From the IMG/VR virus record IMGVR_UViG_3300001472_000140, positions 1,552 through 26,359 of that record: a DNA stretch of 24,808 bases, one strand, 5' to 3'. Positions 1-11,082 of the stretch are shown here, piece by piece. A model generated the notes under the pieces. The model did not search any database and was not told the origin of the DNA. It worked only from the letters and a program-made list of their open reading frames with translations. Origin of the DNA: a virus. Made by a program: the position numbers and the translations under genes. Positions within the stretch are counted from its first letter, which is position 1. Each line of letters starts with the position of its first letter.

Positions 1-668
1 TCTGCCTCGTAATTTTTACTTTTCTTTTCTAATATACTTAAACTTTGCCATGTACAAATAGTATGTGTTTTATCATATTCCTTTCTGTCTCCATATAAAA
101 CACCCACGTCTAATCCTAAGTTTTTGTAATCCTTTTCTGTCTGCACAACTAAATCTTTATTAGGCACTATAACTATAGTCCTTCCATACTCCTCACACTT
201 GTGACTAAGCACGGCTGTAATAAGAGTCTTACCTGCTCCTGTGGCAATCTCTTGTAAGCATTGTGTATTCTCTAAAAACTTATTAATTATCTCAACCTGA
301 TAATCTCTTAATATAATAGGCTGTCCTTCTGCAGGATGCCTTTTAGGCCATGCTACATTATCATAACTAGTTTGCTCTACTTTATTAAACTCAAAACTCC
401 AAGGTTGCCTGTGATCTACTATTTCTATTTCATAACCTTCGTCAGTAATAATAGGCACTAGTTTATCTAATAACTGAAAATATGTCCTGCCTCCAATATC
501 ACAATACCTCACACAACCATCCCATCTGCCTAATTTATAAGCAGGCATATGATATGCATGAGGTAAAAAATATTTACAAGCATCAGAAATCTTACGTCTT
601 GCTTTTACATCAAGCCCTTTAAAACGAACGTTTACTTCGTCTCTTATTTCTAAAACACATTTAGCCAT
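1..668 (-). CDS. uvsW: UvsW-like recombination DNA/RNA helicase, N-terminal part (cut by window edge)
   Basis: About 222 codons are visible from an ATG at 668; the gene runs off the left edge. T4 UvsW is an SF2 helicase that unwinds branched DNA and R-loops and drives the switch from origin- to recombination-dependent replication. I read a UvsW-like N-terminal region with GRWDG-type residues, then LRDYQ (about residue 120, Q-motif-like), a P-loop in EIATGAGKT (about residue 143) and motif Ia-like TIVIVPNKDL. The DEAD/H box would lie outside the window. It follows the TonB-receptor gene by 11 nt with no good Shine-Dalgarno, so it is probably translated from that transcript or a longer one. Family assignment is confident; the missing C-terminal half cannot be judged. 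Confidence 0.88.
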   Translation of the reverse strand, partial: MAKCVLEIRDEVNVRFKGLDVKARRKISDACKYFLPHAYHMPAYKLGRWDGCVRYCDIGGRTYFQLLDKLVPIITDEGYEIEIVDHRQPWSFEFNKVEQTSYDNVAWPKRHPAEGQPIILRDYQVEIINKFLENTQCLQEIATGAGKTLITAVLSHKCEEYGRTIVIVPNKDLVVQTEKDYKNLGLDVGVLYGDRKEYDKTHTICTWQSLSILEKKSKNYEA

Positions 669-679
669 AGTTTATTATA

Positions 680-2365
680 CTACCAGTTATACTGTAATGT
701 CAAGTTTACTTGTTTGCCTTGGTTATCATAATAAGGCAATACTTCTGCTTTTTCATCTGTGATGTTTTCATATGAGAAGTTTAAATTTAACCCATTAGAG
801 AAACTTTTAGTGATAAACAAACTTAGTTTTTTAAGATCATCTAAAAATTCTTGTCCTTCAGGTAAATAATCATATGGTCCAGGTGCTCTATCAAACTGTC
901 CTGCATACTGTACCTTGTAGTTTACATCTTTAAATGTTTGTTCCCATGTAATAACAGTTACATACTCGGGTATTCTAGTTTGGTCTGTGTCATTAAATTT
1001 AAGCATTAAATTAATAGGACCCCATGTATTTGCAAATCTAATACCCTGTGTAGTATAGGAACCTGAATTATTATATCTTGCATTGTTCCAAACAGATTCT
1101 GTAACAGCATCAAGTATTAAAGTTCCAGCATCATCATATATTGCGTCTTCTAAAATAGTTGTGGTCATAAATCCACTAGTATACTCAATAGACTCTTCAA
1201 AGTCATATCTAAATAAACTTAATGCACCAAACCCAATTTCATAGCCTACGCCTTCTTCAGGAAGTAAATTATCGTTTCCATCAACATAAGCATCACCAAA
1301 TACTTCATATAAGTTTGGTCGTCTGTAACTTGTTCCAAAGTTTATAAAAAATTGATCTTTTGATATACCTAATCTCATAGCATTCTGATCTTCGTTACCT
1401 GCTCTTAAGCCAAAGTTATACTCTAAGGCAAACTCGGCATTAACACTTAAAAAGACTCCATAGTCATCTTTTTCATGTACGCCATATTGATCTCTACTTC
1501 CGTCAGCACCATATGTAACTTCTAATAAGTTAGATAGTTGTACTGTATCGCCTACTCTAAAGAAGTCTCTGCTACTTTCGTTTTCATATGTACTAACACC
1601 TTCTGTAAAGTACTCTGCTTTGTCTTCTGTTCTACCAACAGTAAAGAATTCGTTTCTAACACTAACAGTAAACCTTTCACCATCCTGTAAACAGTCATTA
1701 CTTTGACTAAAACTTGCAGTATAACAATTATCATAGTCATATGCATAGTCTGTTGCTGTAACATAAAGTTTAAAGTCTCCTGCATCTGCTATAATTTTTG
1801 CACTAGTATTTTCATACTTGTCATATTCATCATTATCATTTCTTGCCTGTTGCTTTACAGAAAAATCTGTAACTTGCATCCAGTTTGTAGGTGCTACTGA
1901 AATATATTGATGATCTTGATTACCTAATCTTCCTGTAACCCCTCTTGTAATTGTATCTTGTATTAAAACTGTACCGCCAATACTTCCTGATCCGTACATA
2001 ACACTATTTGCACCACTTATAACTTTAACACTTTCGCCTGACACAATGTCGTGTCCAAAGTCGTACCAACCTGAACCAGGTGTGTTTTGTGGTATGCCGT
2101 TTCTATATACTGTAGAGTGAACTGATTGTGTTCCACGTTCTCTATAAAGAACATTTCCTCCATAGCCTCCTGCTATCCAGGTTACATCAGGCATTATGCT
2201 ACTAATTAATTTAGTATCTGTAAGTGCATCTGTTTCTGTTTGCTTTACTACTTGAGCAACAACTACTACCTCTTCTATATCTTCAGCAAGTGCAAAGGCT
2301 GTCCATAAAGGTAGAGTAATAACTATTGCAATTTTTACGATATTATCGTATAGGAATCTTTCCAT
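680..2365 (-). CDS. TonB-dependent outer-membrane receptor, phage-encoded (BtuB-like size)
   Basis: 561 aa. Visible in order: a signal peptide with hydrophobic core (residues 9-27) ending in ALA before E28; a TonB-box-like EEVVVVA (31-37); a plug domain with RERGTQS, VYRNGIP and the hallmark VKVISGANSVMYGSGSIGG; then an alternating beta-barrel with the TBDR signature FGTSYRRPNLYEVFGD and LLPEEGVGYEIGF; and a C-terminal strand ending in an aromatic W. Two cysteines near residues 214 and 225 could form an extracellular-loop disulfide. Such receptors import B12, iron chelates or other scarce substrates using TonB energy; the substrate here is unknown. BtuB is slightly longer, so the gene looks complete. 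Start: ATG with AGGAG at 2375-2379, 9 nt upstream. It has its own consensus sigma70 promoter and a palindromic terminator upstream, so it is an independent unit. Alternative role: a decoy or receptor-masking protein. The fold is near certain; the role is inference. Confidence 0.93.
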   Translation of the reverse strand: MERFLYDNIVKIAIVITLPLWTAFALAEDIEEVVVVAQVVKQTETDALTDTKLISSIMPDVTWIAGGYGGNVLYRERGTQSVHSTVYRNGIPQNTPGSGWYDFGHDIVSGESVKVISGANSVMYGSGSIGGTVLIQDTITRGVTGRLGNQDHQYISVAPTNWMQVTDFSVKQQARNDNDEYDKYENTSAKIIADAGDFKLYVTATDYAYDYDNCYTASFSQSNDCLQDGERFTVSVRNEFFTVGRTEDKAEYFTEGVSTYENESSRDFFRVGDTVQLSNLLEVTYGADGSRDQYGVHEKDDYGVFLSVNAEFALEYNFGLRAGNEDQNAMRLGISKDQFFINFGTSYRRPNLYEVFGDAYVDGNDNLLPEEGVGYEIGFGALSLFRYDFEESIEYTSGFMTTTILEDAIYDDAGTLILDAVTESVWNNARYNNSGSYTTQGIRFANTWGPINLMLKFNDTDQTRIPEYVTVITWEQTFKDVNYKVQYAGQFDRAPGPYDYLPEGQEFLDDLKKLSLFITKSFSNGLNLNFSYENITDEKAEVLPYYDNQGKQVNLTLQYNW

Positions 2366-2414
2366 GATCTATTTCTCCTGTAATGACTGATCAAAGTCGT
2401 AATTAATAGTTTTA

Positions 2415-2442
2415 ATTATACATTACTTGTTTGTTTTGTCAA
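2415..2442 (-). promoter_or_regulatory. Consensus sigma70 promoter of the TonB-receptor gene
   Basis: On the minus strand TTGACA (2442-2437), a 16-nt spacer and TATAAT (2420-2415): both hexamers match consensus perfectly. The -10 ends 49 nt before the receptor ATG. It predicts strong early transcription by host RNA polymerase. Confidence 0.88.
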
Positions 2443-2457
2443 GAGGTTTATATAAGA

Positions 2458-2481
2458 AACCCCCAAATTAATTTGGGGGTT
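2458..2481 (-). terminator. Perfect palindrome, probable terminator between AAA ATPase and TonB-receptor genes
   Basis: Arms AACCCCCAAATT (2458-2469) and AATTTGGGGGTT (2470-2481) form a perfect 24-bp palindrome: a G/C-capped stem with a tight AATT loop. On the minus strand it is followed by TTTCTTATAT, a moderate U-tract. It lies just upstream of the receptor promoter, so it would insulate it. It could work on both strands. Confidence 0.65.
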
Positions 2482-2485
2482 AATC

Positions 2486-2584
2486 GTGTTCAAAGTGGGA
2501 GGGTTCTGAACACTAGGGGGAACCCTTAAAAATATTTATTAAGGGCTCTTAACCGTATGAGGTATTATTGAAAACTCCTCATAC
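2486..2584. repeat. Three further inverted repeats downstream of the AAA ATPase gene
   Basis: Three stem-loops follow one another: GTGTTCA 2486-2492 with TGAACAC 2507-2513; CCCTTAA 2523-2529 with TTAAGGG 2539-2545 (loop holds a TAAATA-like late box, 2533-2540 on the minus strand); GTATGAGG 2555-2562 with CCTCATAC 2577-2584, which includes the ATPase stop codon. With the palindrome at 2458-2481 this makes four structures in about 130 bp. Function unknown: 3'-end protection, termination or a recombination element are possible. Confidence 0.6.
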
Positions 2585-3589
2585 AAGTTGATCTTGATAA
2601 TCCTTCCAGTTATCATAATTCATTTTGGCCAAGTCTGCAATCTTAAGGACCATCCTTAATGATATCTCTCTTAACCTACCTGCGTTCTCATGCATAAAGT
2701 CTACAATCTCCTTTTCAAACTCTTTGCTGAACCCATATTCTTTAAGCATACCATCTCTAATGATTTGATCGATTCTTAAAAACTTATCGTCTACTGAATC
2801 CATTTCTAAATCAATATAGTGACATCTGCTCATTAGTGCCGCTAAATGGTCTTTAATCTTTTTACTTCTAACATTCTCAAAATTAACGTTAGTAATAAAA
2901 ATTACACCACCTTTAAAGTCAAACCTATCAGGTATTCCTTCTCTTCTTAGTGCGGAAGATTCTGCTTTCCAACTAATTGTTCTTTTCTTGCCTGAGTCTA
3001 AAACTGCTTTAAGCATATTAAGACAAACTTCATCAAATAGTACACTATCACAATCATCAAATACAAGTATGTCACCTGCCGCACTATTATTAAATAGTGT
3101 TTGATATAAACCAATTGGTGTCATTGAGCCTTTAACAATTTCTGTTTTTACTGCTCCACCAATTTTTGCCATTGCGTCATATTCTTCAAGAATAGTTTCA
3201 ACACCAAAACTTTTACCAACTCCTGGAGGGCCACTTACTATAAGTCCTCTAACAACACCATTAGCAACTGCATCAGTCATTTCGTCAAGGATACTAAATC
3301 TTTCAGCAATTCTATCCATTGCTTGTTTTTTAGATTCCTTTTTCTCTTTAGGCTTCATGTTTTCAGGAATAAAGTTATTGTACTCTTGCTCAGTTGCTGG
3401 TATAACTTCACTTGGAGAGTCAACTAGTACTCTAATTTTTGTAAACTCGGCTCCCATTAAAGCAGTTGCATCAACTGTTACAAATGCTCCACGTTTACCA
3501 AATGTTACCCCTTTGAGTAAAGGGAAAACTGCGTCTGTGACTGGCTTACTTCTGTGTACGCCATTTTTTATTTTAACAAAGTCTTTCAT
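2579..3589 (-). CDS. AAA-family ATPase, phage-type, function unknown
   Basis: 336 aa. Walker A GPPGVGKS (residues 120-127), Walker B ILVFDDCD (174-181) and a sensor-1-like VIFITN (229-234) define an AAA ATPase core. The N-terminal ~90 residues hold a Lys-rich linker (KPKEKKESKKQ); the C-terminal part is helical and resembles an AAA lid. Marine T4-like phages often carry a similar single-domain ATPase, but I cannot name a biochemical role. It is not CobS-like: the CobS motifs are missing. The start is supported by GGGAGG 6 nt upstream of ATG 3589. It has its own TTGACA-N16-TATACT promoter and is followed by a run of inverted repeats, so it is probably an early, separately transcribed gene. Confidence 0.85.
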   Translation of the reverse strand: MKDFVKIKNGVHRSKPVTDAVFPLLKGVTFGKRGAFVTVDATALMGAEFTKIRVLVDSPSEVIPATEQEYNNFIPENMKPKEKKESKKQAMDRIAERFSILDEMTDAVANGVVRGLIVSGPPGVGKSFGVETILEEYDAMAKIGGAVKTEIVKGSMTPIGLYQTLFNNSAAGDILVFDDCDSVLFDEVCLNMLKAVLDSGKKRTISWKAESSALRREGIPDRFDFKGGVIFITNVNFENVRSKKIKDHLAALMSRCHYIDLEMDSVDDKFLRIDQIIRDGMLKEYGFSKEFEKEIVDFMHENAGRLREISLRMVLKIADLAKMNYDNWKDYQDQLV

Positions 3590-3864: not shown

Positions 3865-4074
3865 TTAGATGTTTCTTATTATAATAATGCCGTATGTATC
3901 CATAACAACATTGTTGCAACCTATTGAATTTATTACACCATTTACTAGGTCTATCATGCGTTGTGAATTACCGCATACTATGGTGAGAGGTATTTTGTCC
4001 TGATTAAGTAATATAAAATTTTCCACCATAAGTTCTACCTCATAATGTCTTACGCCATGTAAGTCTAATCTCAT
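3865..4074 (-). CDS. Smr-domain-like small protein
   Basis: 69 aa. It opens with LDLHG (residues 3-7), the classic first motif of Smr (small MutS-related) domains, followed by a helix (HYEVELMVENFI), a beta strand (LTIVCGNS, residues 30-37, at the place of the usual T-G-x-G loop) and a terminal strand YGIIIIRN. Smr domains have nicking or RNA-cleaving endonuclease activity in some families. The canonical glycine loop is altered to CGNS, so activity is uncertain. The start codon overlaps the end of the 381-aa gene by 4 nt (ATGA), showing translational coupling in the uvsX-uvsY operon. At 69 aa it is near the minimum for the domain. Confidence 0.65.
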   Translation of the reverse strand: MRLDLHGVRHYEVELMVENFILLNQDKIPLTIVCGNSQRMIDLVNGVINSIGCNNVVMDTYGIIIIRNI

Positions 4075-5216
4075 ATTACAGAACGAAGTAATACTTCCTG
4101 ATTATGTTTAAGTATTGGCATCATATCCCAATACATATCGTGTAAGTCTTCTTGTGATCTGGAACCTAAGTCTATTAGTATATCCATTATTGCATCTAAT
4201 TTACGTTCTCCGTTTAAATGATCGTAATGTTCGTCCCAATAATCACTAAATGTTTTAAAGCCAATACTGTGTAAATGTTCTAATGTTCCTGATGTTCCGT
4301 ATATAATTTGTGGATGTAAGTTTAGCATGGGTCTTGTAATCTTTTCTGTTAAGAACATTTCTTTATGAAAACTTCTAAAATAGTCATTTACTTTATCGTC
4401 CCAATGATAATCACATAAATCCTGTGACTCTGAACTTTCTGTAGTCACCGTAAAGTAACAATCCTCATAAAGGTATCTGAAGTCACCCACCTTGTTCCAA
4501 TCTAATCCATCTACTTCAGGATAACTCTCAAATATTTTATCGTAAATCTGATCCCAATCCCCAGATAAATCAAACTGTATTGGTAATTGAGATTTAAATT
4601 CTGGTGTAAGTATGCTGGCCCATTTGTCATGTTTAAGGATAGGATCTTCAGGACTAGGATTTAATAGTTCTGGATAGGCATGGAAACTTGTATAAGTATT
4701 TTCCGTATCTATCAAACCATTTTTTTCCATTGCCAACATAAACATTAATCTGTGTGGTAACATATTTGCATTTAGGCAATTATATTTTTTACTTCTTAGG
4801 TGTGTAGGTGCTTCTTTTGTGTATATAAGTTTGTCATGATAACCGCTATTTCTTCTATATAAGTACAATCCAAAGCATTCGCTCACTACATTAATTTTGT
4901 CTGAAGTGTCTGAATACAATCTGTGCCAATTGTCGTAACTGTCTTGTATTTTTTCGTTTGAGCCTTTATATGTTATATCGCTTAACTTTACATTATACTT
5001 TTTACCGAAATCATGTATTGCTTTATAAAAATGACTACCATCAATAAGCCACATTGTGCCTTCACATGTATAACTAAAAATTATTGATACCGGCTCATCA
5101 GGATTTGATTGCCTATAGGACTGAAAGTCCTGTGTTAATGTTTCTGTGAAATTTTCCCAACTATGCCAAGTTCTTTCTTCGCATTGGATTAAGTCGTATG
5201 TAAATGTTCTGGCCAT
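4071..5216 (-). CDS. Uncharacterised 381-aa protein with a glycosyltransferase-like C-terminal signature
   Basis: 381 aa, soluble, rich in aromatic and acidic residues. I cannot place the N-terminal two thirds. The last third reads CYFTVTTESSES, then FLTEKITRP, IIYGTSGTLEHLHSIGFKTF and DYWDEHYD. This S/T-E...TEK...G...L...GFKTF...DEsYD order recurs in marine-phage proteins and resembles the nucleotide-sugar-binding end of some GT-B glycosyltransferases. A sugar-transfer role (modification of DNA, virion or host envelope) is therefore possible but unproven. It starts in a 1-nt TAATG overlap with uvsY and ends in a 4-nt overlap with the Smr-like gene, so it is co-translated with the recombination genes. 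No cysteine cluster, signal peptide or membrane helix is visible. Confidence 0.6.
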   Translation of the reverse strand: MARTFTYDLIQCEERTWHSWENFTETLTQDFQSYRQSNPDEPVSIIFSYTCEGTMWLIDGSHFYKAIHDFGKKYNVKLSDITYKGSNEKIQDSYDNWHRLYSDTSDKINVVSECFGLYLYRRNSGYHDKLIYTKEAPTHLRSKKYNCLNANMLPHRLMFMLAMEKNGLIDTENTYTSFHAYPELLNPSPEDPILKHDKWASILTPEFKSQLPIQFDLSGDWDQIYDKIFESYPEVDGLDWNKVGDFRYLYEDCYFTVTTESSESQDLCDYHWDDKVNDYFRSFHKEMFLTEKITRPMLNLHPQIIYGTSGTLEHLHSIGFKTFSDYWDEHYDHLNGERKLDAIMDILIDLGSRSQEDLHDMYWDMMPILKHNQEVLLRSVI

Positions 5217-10416: not shown

Positions 10417-11082
10417 TTATACTCTTACTGAAAGATTGTTTAAAACTTTTTGTACATTTTCCACACTTGTTTCAACATTTATTACTATCCAGTAACTCTG
10501 CAAGTCTCCAGCATTAAACAAATAATGTGATTTAGTTGTATCTGTAAAGTAAACAAAGCCAGTATTCCAGTGTGTAATCTCTCCGTCCATAACAAAATTA
10601 AAATAAGGCGGATCTACATATTGTAAAGGAACAATTAATCTAAAACTATCTACAAACGGTATATTATGATCTCTATGTGGAGGAAAATAACCTCCTGGAT
10701 CTAGTCTTAGTATATGTGTTCTAAAAATACTATCTCCAAAAACGTCTAGTATTTCTTTTAATGGTGGATAATCAGCAACCGGAGTCCTTGTTTTAAAATC
10801 TTTTTCGTTATAATCTGTATTATTTTCCTGATTGTATTCCCTTAAACTATCTAAATCTGGTATGCCACTAAGTCCACCGTCTAAACTGGTGATACTTAAT
10901 CCTGCTCTGTTTACTGCCTTTCTGGGATTGTATTGTACAAATTTAAATTTACTATATACCCAATCTAAAAAATCGTCTGGATCTAAATAGTAATTCGTTT
11001 GGCATTGTTTTCCATATAATGCTAAACTATTAAGTGCTGTAGTTTCCAACAGCAATTCGTTTACAGTTTTTTTCTTTTCCAT
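10417..11082 (-). CDS. 2OG-Fe(II) oxygenase / Asp-Asn beta-hydroxylase-like protein
   Basis: 221 aa. The core reads ILRLDPGGYFPPHRDHNIP (HxD iron ligands H136 and D138), FRLIVPLQY, NTGFVYFTDTTKSHYLFN (probable distal His H186) and a final strand SYWIVINVE. This is the double-stranded beta-helix pattern of 2-oxoglutarate/Fe(II) oxygenases, closest to the aspartyl/asparaginyl beta-hydroxylase type. The usual 2OG-binding Arg about ten residues after the distal His is not obvious. Substrate unknown: protein side chain, nucleobase or small molecule. It starts in a 1-nt TAATG overlap with gp17, so it is co-translated with the terminase and is a late gene. Similar oxygenases are frequent in marine T4-like phages. 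Confidence 0.75.
   Translation of the reverse strand: MEKKKTVNELLLETTALNSLALYGKQCQTNYYLDPDDFLDWVYSKFKFVQYNPRKAVNRAGLSITSLDGGLSGIPDLDSLREYNQENNTDYNEKDFKTRTPVADYPPLKEILDVFGDSIFRTHILRLDPGGYFPPHRDHNIPFVDSFRLIVPLQYVDPPYFNFVMDGEITHWNTGFVYFTDTTKSHYLFNAGDLQSYWIVINVETSVENVQKVLNNLSVRV

Follow-up and report, generated by a model that had tools for sequence, protein, structure and literature searches.

A gene located at positions 680..2365 on the minus strand of the window, defined here as the whole 24,808-nucleotide stretch of viral DNA that was analyzed, encodes a phage BtuB-like TonB-dependent outer-membrane transporter (hereafter TBDR). It is a genuine phage gene under selection and a candidate auxiliary metabolic gene. 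TonB-dependent receptors are usually the points at which phages enter cells. At a probability of roughly one half, TBDR is a TonB-coupled importer that is made early, most likely takes up cobalamin/corrinoid, and may serve the SAM and methyl metabolism of the phages that carry it. The odds are about even because the fold, the profile matches, and the gene context argue for this ligand, while a loose link to B12-dependent enzymes and a class I ribonucleotide reductase argue against it.

Gene Structure and Predicted Fold

The open reading frame is intact, encodes 561 amino acids, and has the coordinates given in a preliminary description of this DNA, which had also claimed a signal peptide, a TonB box, a plug, and an aromatic C-terminus. 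All of these were recovered. The signal peptide (MERFLYDNIVKIAIVITLPLWTAFALA, residues 1-27; 2285..2365, minus strand) and the TonB box (IEEVVVV, residues 30-36; 2258..2278, minus strand), where conservation within the family peaks, were identified by eye, and the Plug domain (residues 38-132; 1970..2254, minus strand) by a match to Pfam PF07715 (E=2.1e-9, 38.3 bits against a cut-off of 23.9). The remainder of the protein (residues ~142-561; 683..1942, minus strand) is predicted from the model and the sequence to form a 22-stranded beta-barrel, and no Pfam barrel model matched it at E<=1. It ends in a tryptophan, seen by eye, that is present in 47 of 56 family members and is missing from one distant clade. 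The GC content of the gene resembles that of its surroundings and is no outlier.

An AlphaFold model built with 56 diverse viral relatives reached a pLDDT of 90.0 and a pTM of 0.87 and was used throughout; a run with 21 close relatives gave a pLDDT of 33.6. By our reading of the DSSP elements, the model comprises a plug and 22 barrel strands, and it superposes over its full length on BtuB. The plug and full barrel that had been proposed from sequence are thus upheld by the prediction, since the model contains both and BtuB is its nearest neighbor. In VIA-align, the best match was BtuB (2gsk; Z 37.2, rmsd 2.3 A over 492 residues), and the top 15 rows comprised cobalamin transporters only (BtuB, Z 33.9-37.2; Bacteroides BtuB-type proteins, Z 32.1-33.6), followed by ChuA (Z 30.7). 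Foldseek also ranked BtuB first. Similarly, a profile search of the PDB returned BtuB at E=4.6e-13 and next the heme receptor ShuA at E=0.08, with no other match below 0.08, and a phmmer search of the PDB with the single TBDR protein returned no match. The NCBIfam model that matched the most family members was TonB-B12 (41 of 56, best E=3.7e-21), and heme/hemoglobin receptor profiles matched 36 of 56. The resemblance to BtuB is remote (16-18% identity). Further, since TBDR scores 28.6 bits against the BtuB equivalog model TIGR01779, for which the cut-off is 599.7, it is by these sequence comparisons a BtuB-like TonB-dependent transporter outside of the BtuB equivalog family. In BFVD, the sole confident match was a SusC protein from an uncultured marine phage, which is unlike TBDR in its length (805 aa) and shares 11% identity with it.

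Phage Lineage and Distribution

The preliminary description termed the phage T4-like. This holds loosely, in that UvsX, UvsY, gp32-like, and UvsW-like proteins are encoded, but by its terminase and by the sizes of its relatives it is a jumbo phage. The large subunit of the terminase is nearest to those of Pseudomonas PA5oct-type jumbo phages (58% identity over 98%), and the relatives that share its synteny have lengths of 217, 250, and 340 kb. The likeness to the PA5oct-type phages extends to genomes of >200 kb; the two differ in that tblastn detected no TBDR in PA5oct-type records. Directly 3' of the terminase gene of the window lies a 2OG-Fe(II)/Asp-Arg hydroxylase-like gene (10417-11082, minus strand). 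Elsewhere in the window, a gene at 4071-5216 (minus strand) encodes a 381-aa protein without a Pfam match that has several divergent homologs in each large relative, marking a multicopy jumbo-phage family.

Searches of viral contigs with a range of queries returned overlapping sets of 36, 88, 211, and 225 TBDR relatives, placing the number of IMG/VR contigs that carry one at 225 or more. A tblastn search of 50,697 GenBank phage records returned no family member and only weak btuB matches. In two pattern-based scans of 84,980 cellular genomes, by which a cellular cousin could have been missed, the best match had only ~32% identity, over the plug, and the best match in plasmids had 36% identity over 15% of the protein. 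A recent bacterial donor clade, as sought by the preliminary description, is not supported by these scans.

The window derives from a 26,359-base record, and its being part of such a 26-kb fragment is compatible with TBDR being a piece of host DNA mis-assembled onto a phage contig, or a decaying remnant. Against this, the order AAA ATPase-TBDR-uvsW recurs in dozens of other contigs, by which chimerism is excluded, TBDR is present in a single copy in each of the 217-340 kb phage records, dN/dS is ~0.1, and the cellular scans revealed no close relative. Mis-assembly and host contamination are ruled out by the repeated gene order and the single copies in the large records, and an origin of this kind, decay included, is scarcely conceivable.

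Two other features of the large relatives were noted. In a 340-kb relative, a curli-like cluster (L347; G020 251530-259164, minus strand) comprises genes for CsgG (PF03783, E=1.4e-45), for two curlin-related proteins, one with curlin repeats and one curlin-like, and for a protein with a FecR domain. In a 250-kb relative, a DUF481 outer-membrane barrel-like protein is encoded at L178 11847-12530 (G001 201847-202530, minus strand) and is a second candidate phage outer-membrane protein.

Genomic Position and Promoter

In the window, TBDR is preceded by a gene for an AAA ATPase (phrog_1250; 2579..3589, minus strand) and followed by a gene for a UvsW-like helicase (3..668, minus strand; truncated by the window end), both of which are conserved neighbors. 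When relatives were searched from the AAA gene, TBDR was found between the two, where the preliminary description had suggested looking, in 63 of the 67 loci that had at least 400 nt downstream, a hand count of loci that are not all independent. Because it occupies this site so regularly, TBDR is close to core in this phage lineage. The other four loci comprise two different arrangements and two empty sites, which lack TBDR and in which uvsW follows the AAA match after ~141 nt. Both empty-site relatives (L320, 1986-4607; L316) carry MetK.

TBDR has a promoter of its own: a sigma-70 element (TTGACA-N16-TATAAT; 2415..2442, minus strand) that matches the consensus at 12 of 12 positions. Between this promoter and the AAA ATPase gene, a terminator-like hairpin (2458..2481, minus strand) separates TBDR from its upstream neighbor, and a ribosome-binding site (AGGAG; 2375..2379, minus strand) was identified by eye. 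A second sigma-70 promoter, also a 12/12 match, lies in the 3' end of TBDR and reads into uvsW (674..703, minus strand). Of 90 distinct upstream contexts, 55 contain a strict consensus promoter, which in 53 has the same 16-nt spacer, and the contexts without one are mostly copies at a second site, described below, together with one distant clade. From the promoter, we infer that TBDR is probably made early by the RNA polymerase of the host.

Exchange of Alleles Between Two Sites

The second site at which TBDR occurs lies among genes that by eye appear baseplate-like, and an MTA/SAH-nucleosidase-like gene immediately precedes it. On the maximum-likelihood tree, the site label switches at least five times, indicating that alleles move between the sites. 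Additionally, alleles are replaced within the first site: in phage pairs whose AAA, UvsX, and UvsW proteins are 95-99% identical (L049/L105 and L010/L125), the TBDRs are just 40-60% identical, with DNA identity dropping at the start of TBDR or just within its signal peptide and returning at the stop. Different alleles have signal peptides in common, which is consistent with recombination there. The same signal peptide (MERFLYDNIVKIA...LAED) also starts an unrelated small exported protein that is weakly DUF6491-like (L033 4680-5099, L034 8001-8420, L035 8001-8420, and L036 8001-8408). A simple vitamin importer would not be expected to swap alleles in this way, and the exchange counts against cobalamin as the ligand.

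Selection and Conserved Residues

In most pairs, dN/dS is ~0.08-0.18, and TBDR is thus under purifying selection. Mean column entropy is 0.64 bits in the TonB box and 1.50 bits overall, with values of 1.03 in the plug, 1.02 in loop L2, 1.00 in L3, and 0.91 in L9 as compared to 1.61 in the membrane strands and 1.82 in the periplasmic turns. With loop limits taken from our reading of the AlphaFold model, loops L2, L3, L7, L9, and L11 are less variable than the membrane strands, L1, L5, and L8 are variable, and length variation falls in the surface loops L5 and L8. Invariant residues cluster in the TonB box, the plug apices, L2, L3, L7, and L9-L10. Among the 56 members, these include Glu31 and Val35 of the TonB box; Q80 and H83 of the plug, where H105 is nearly so; D177, N178, E180, and D182 in the acidic L2 motif R175-NDNDEY-D182 (1820..1843, minus strand); D212 and the cysteine pair C214 and C225 in the L3 motif Y209-DYDNCYTASFSQSND-C225 (1691..1741, minus strand); R348, Y353, and D358 in L7; and R464 and R493 (full-length numbering). 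It should be noted that several of the family scans relied on plug, L3, L4, and L7 motifs, a possible source of selection bias; eight members that were found via the AAA gene and not via TBDR motifs keep the same invariant residues.

These observations bear on the suggestion in the preliminary description that the protein might act in superinfection exclusion, as a receptor decoy, or by occupying TonB. If TBDR occupied TonB or displaced host receptors at the cell surface, bacteriocins or superinfecting phages dependent on TonB or on receptors of the BtuB type would fail. A consensus promoter suggestive of early expression, a position fixed in 63 of 67 relatives, whole alleles swapped with sharp edges, and surface loops L5 and L8 of varying length would all suit such competition. 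However, L2, L3, L7, L9, and L11 vary less than the membrane strands (for the first four, the opposite of an arms-race decoy), dN/dS is ~0.1, and a mere TonB blocker would need neither a conserved plug apex nor conserved ligand loops. Allele swapping and the variability of L1, L5, and L8 leave some room for antagonism at the surface; as the role of TBDR, competition is nonetheless improbable. The overall pattern of residue conservation is that which would be expected if TBDR were a transporter coupled to TonB whose family members share a ligand, not if it were a decoy. Nutrient uptake, which the preliminary description had also put forward, is the best supported of its options, given that BtuB is nearest in both fold and profile, that the TonB box and the presumed ligand loops are conserved, and that dN/dS is ~0.1, with the identity of the nutrient left to the considerations that follow.

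Ligand and Metabolic Context

TBDR resembles BtuB of E. coli in having a plug and a 22-strand barrel, a similar size, acidic residues in L2 and L3, and an arginine at the position of Arg497; it is unlike BtuB in its invariant pair of L3 cysteines, its short L4 and L5, and its carriage by a phage, with a promoter of its own. The arginine in question, R464, aligns with BtuB Arg497, which we take to have a functional role in BtuB. The L3 motif of TBDR aligns with loop L3 of BtuB, and the aligned residues are conserved; in BtuB, this loop contacts cobalamin (PMC7360065). In BtuB, calcium is bound within a cage formed by five Asp (PMC7360065). TBDR has invariant acids in L2 (D177, E180, and D182) and L3 (D212) that do not correspond one-to-one with this cage, the fifth Asp of which is not kept, and the plug apex reads WYDFGH in TBDR versus GSADLSQ in BtuB.

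The gene context also touches on methyl metabolism. Among the 28 loci of the first site with at least 7 kb of downstream sequence (the record of the window stops before that region), an adenine phosphoribosyltransferase (APT) is encoded within 9 kb downstream in all 28, the SAM synthetase MetK in 17, and an MTA/SAH-nucleosidase-like protein in 9. B12-binding radical-SAM proteins that are KedN5-like, and thus resemble methylcobalamin-dependent enzymes, are encoded in G001, G010, G020/G021 (where the two proteins are identical), G027, and G042. KedN5-like cobalamin-binding radical-SAM enzymes, as encoded at L357 1207-3057, L355 429-2264, L354 256-2139, and L180 15161-17230, occur in at least 559 viral contigs, and only one weak match was found in 50,697 GenBank phage records. 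The enzyme was rejected as a strict companion of TBDR: 13 other phage records, 7 of which are 236-345 kb long, encode a B12-radical-SAM enzyme but no plug domain, and the enzyme and receptor are therefore not obligately linked. A B12-dependent ribonucleotide reductase was likewise rejected as the reason for B12 import, the reductase of these phages being class I (NrdA and NrdB), which is not B12-dependent.

Class I ribonucleotide reductases are usually iron-dependent. The presence of one in these phages, along with the 2OG-Fe(II) oxygenase-like gene in the window, would fit an early TonB-dependent importer for some other scarce ligand, such as heme, a ferric siderophore, or a different complex, organic or metal, with alleles that may differ in ligand. 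The heme/hemoglobin profile matches noted above and the position of heme receptors as the next structural neighbors (Z ~30) point in the same direction; the invariant H83 and nearly invariant H105 of the plug, like the swapping of alleles, could suit a ligand of another or a variable kind. However, BtuB is well ahead of heme and siderophore receptors by both sequence and structure, and loop residues stay invariant across alleles of only ~40% identity, which argues that the ligand is shared. An importer for a ligand of another kind is therefore rather unlikely.

Proposed Mechanism and Relation to Known Systems

If TBDR does import cobalamin/corrinoid, the host RNA polymerase would read the gene early from its strong sigma-70 promoter, the product would be exported by Sec and BAM, and the host TonB-ExbB-ExbD would power it, no TonB gene having been found in the phage contigs searched. 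Cobalamin or corrinoid brought into the infected cell would feed the methyl and SAM economy of the phages, as represented by MetK, MTA/SAH nucleosidase, the nearby APT, and the B12-radical-SAM enzymes, and host MetH would benefit too. A more far-reaching version of this reading is tentative and, although possible, falls short of probable. In this version, a TonB-dependent transporter was domesticated by a whole jumbo-phage lineage and became an early, near-core surface cassette that is exchangeable: some allele out of many is almost always present, and alleles are recombined via flanking genes and moved between two sites. The resulting virus-specific cobalamin/corrinoid importer would refit the host outer membrane in each infection and would be coupled to a virus-encoded SAM/methyl cycle.

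Reports of phage-encoded TonB-dependent receptors were found in the open-access literature for two phages only. The marine megaphage Mar_Mega_1 encodes a SusC-like TonB-dependent receptor that was proposed to be an auxiliary metabolic gene for uptake (PMC9723777). It is like the present case in that a large phage, there a marine one, carries such a receptor, and it differs in that tblastn detected no TBDR family member among GenBank phages, including the related megaphage LR745206. In the pelagiphage Polarivirus skadi, a TonB-dependent receptor gene lies between tail-tube and capsid genes and was read by the authors as a hint to the adsorption receptor (PMC10504331). Skadi likewise carries a phage-encoded TonB-dependent receptor gene, and differs in that no relative of the TBDR family was detected among GenBank phages. 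A virus-specific, near-universal, allele-swapping, and promoter-bearing family of BtuB-like proteins was not found in the open-access literature searched.

The present findings describe a large group of uncultivated jumbo phages that nearly always brings its own TonB-dependent receptor, with a TonB box and ligand loops kept by selection. The pattern of allele swapping provides a new handle on what drives the exchange of surface proteins among phages. Should TBDR import cobalamin, a single gene in a laboratory E. coli btuB strain would allow a direct test of whether viruses alter the outer membrane to take up nutrients in lytic infection. These jumbo phages probably re-equip the surface of the infected cell for the uptake of a scarce cofactor and, if that cofactor is cobalamin, they would direct into the cells that they infect a vitamin in short supply in many waters.
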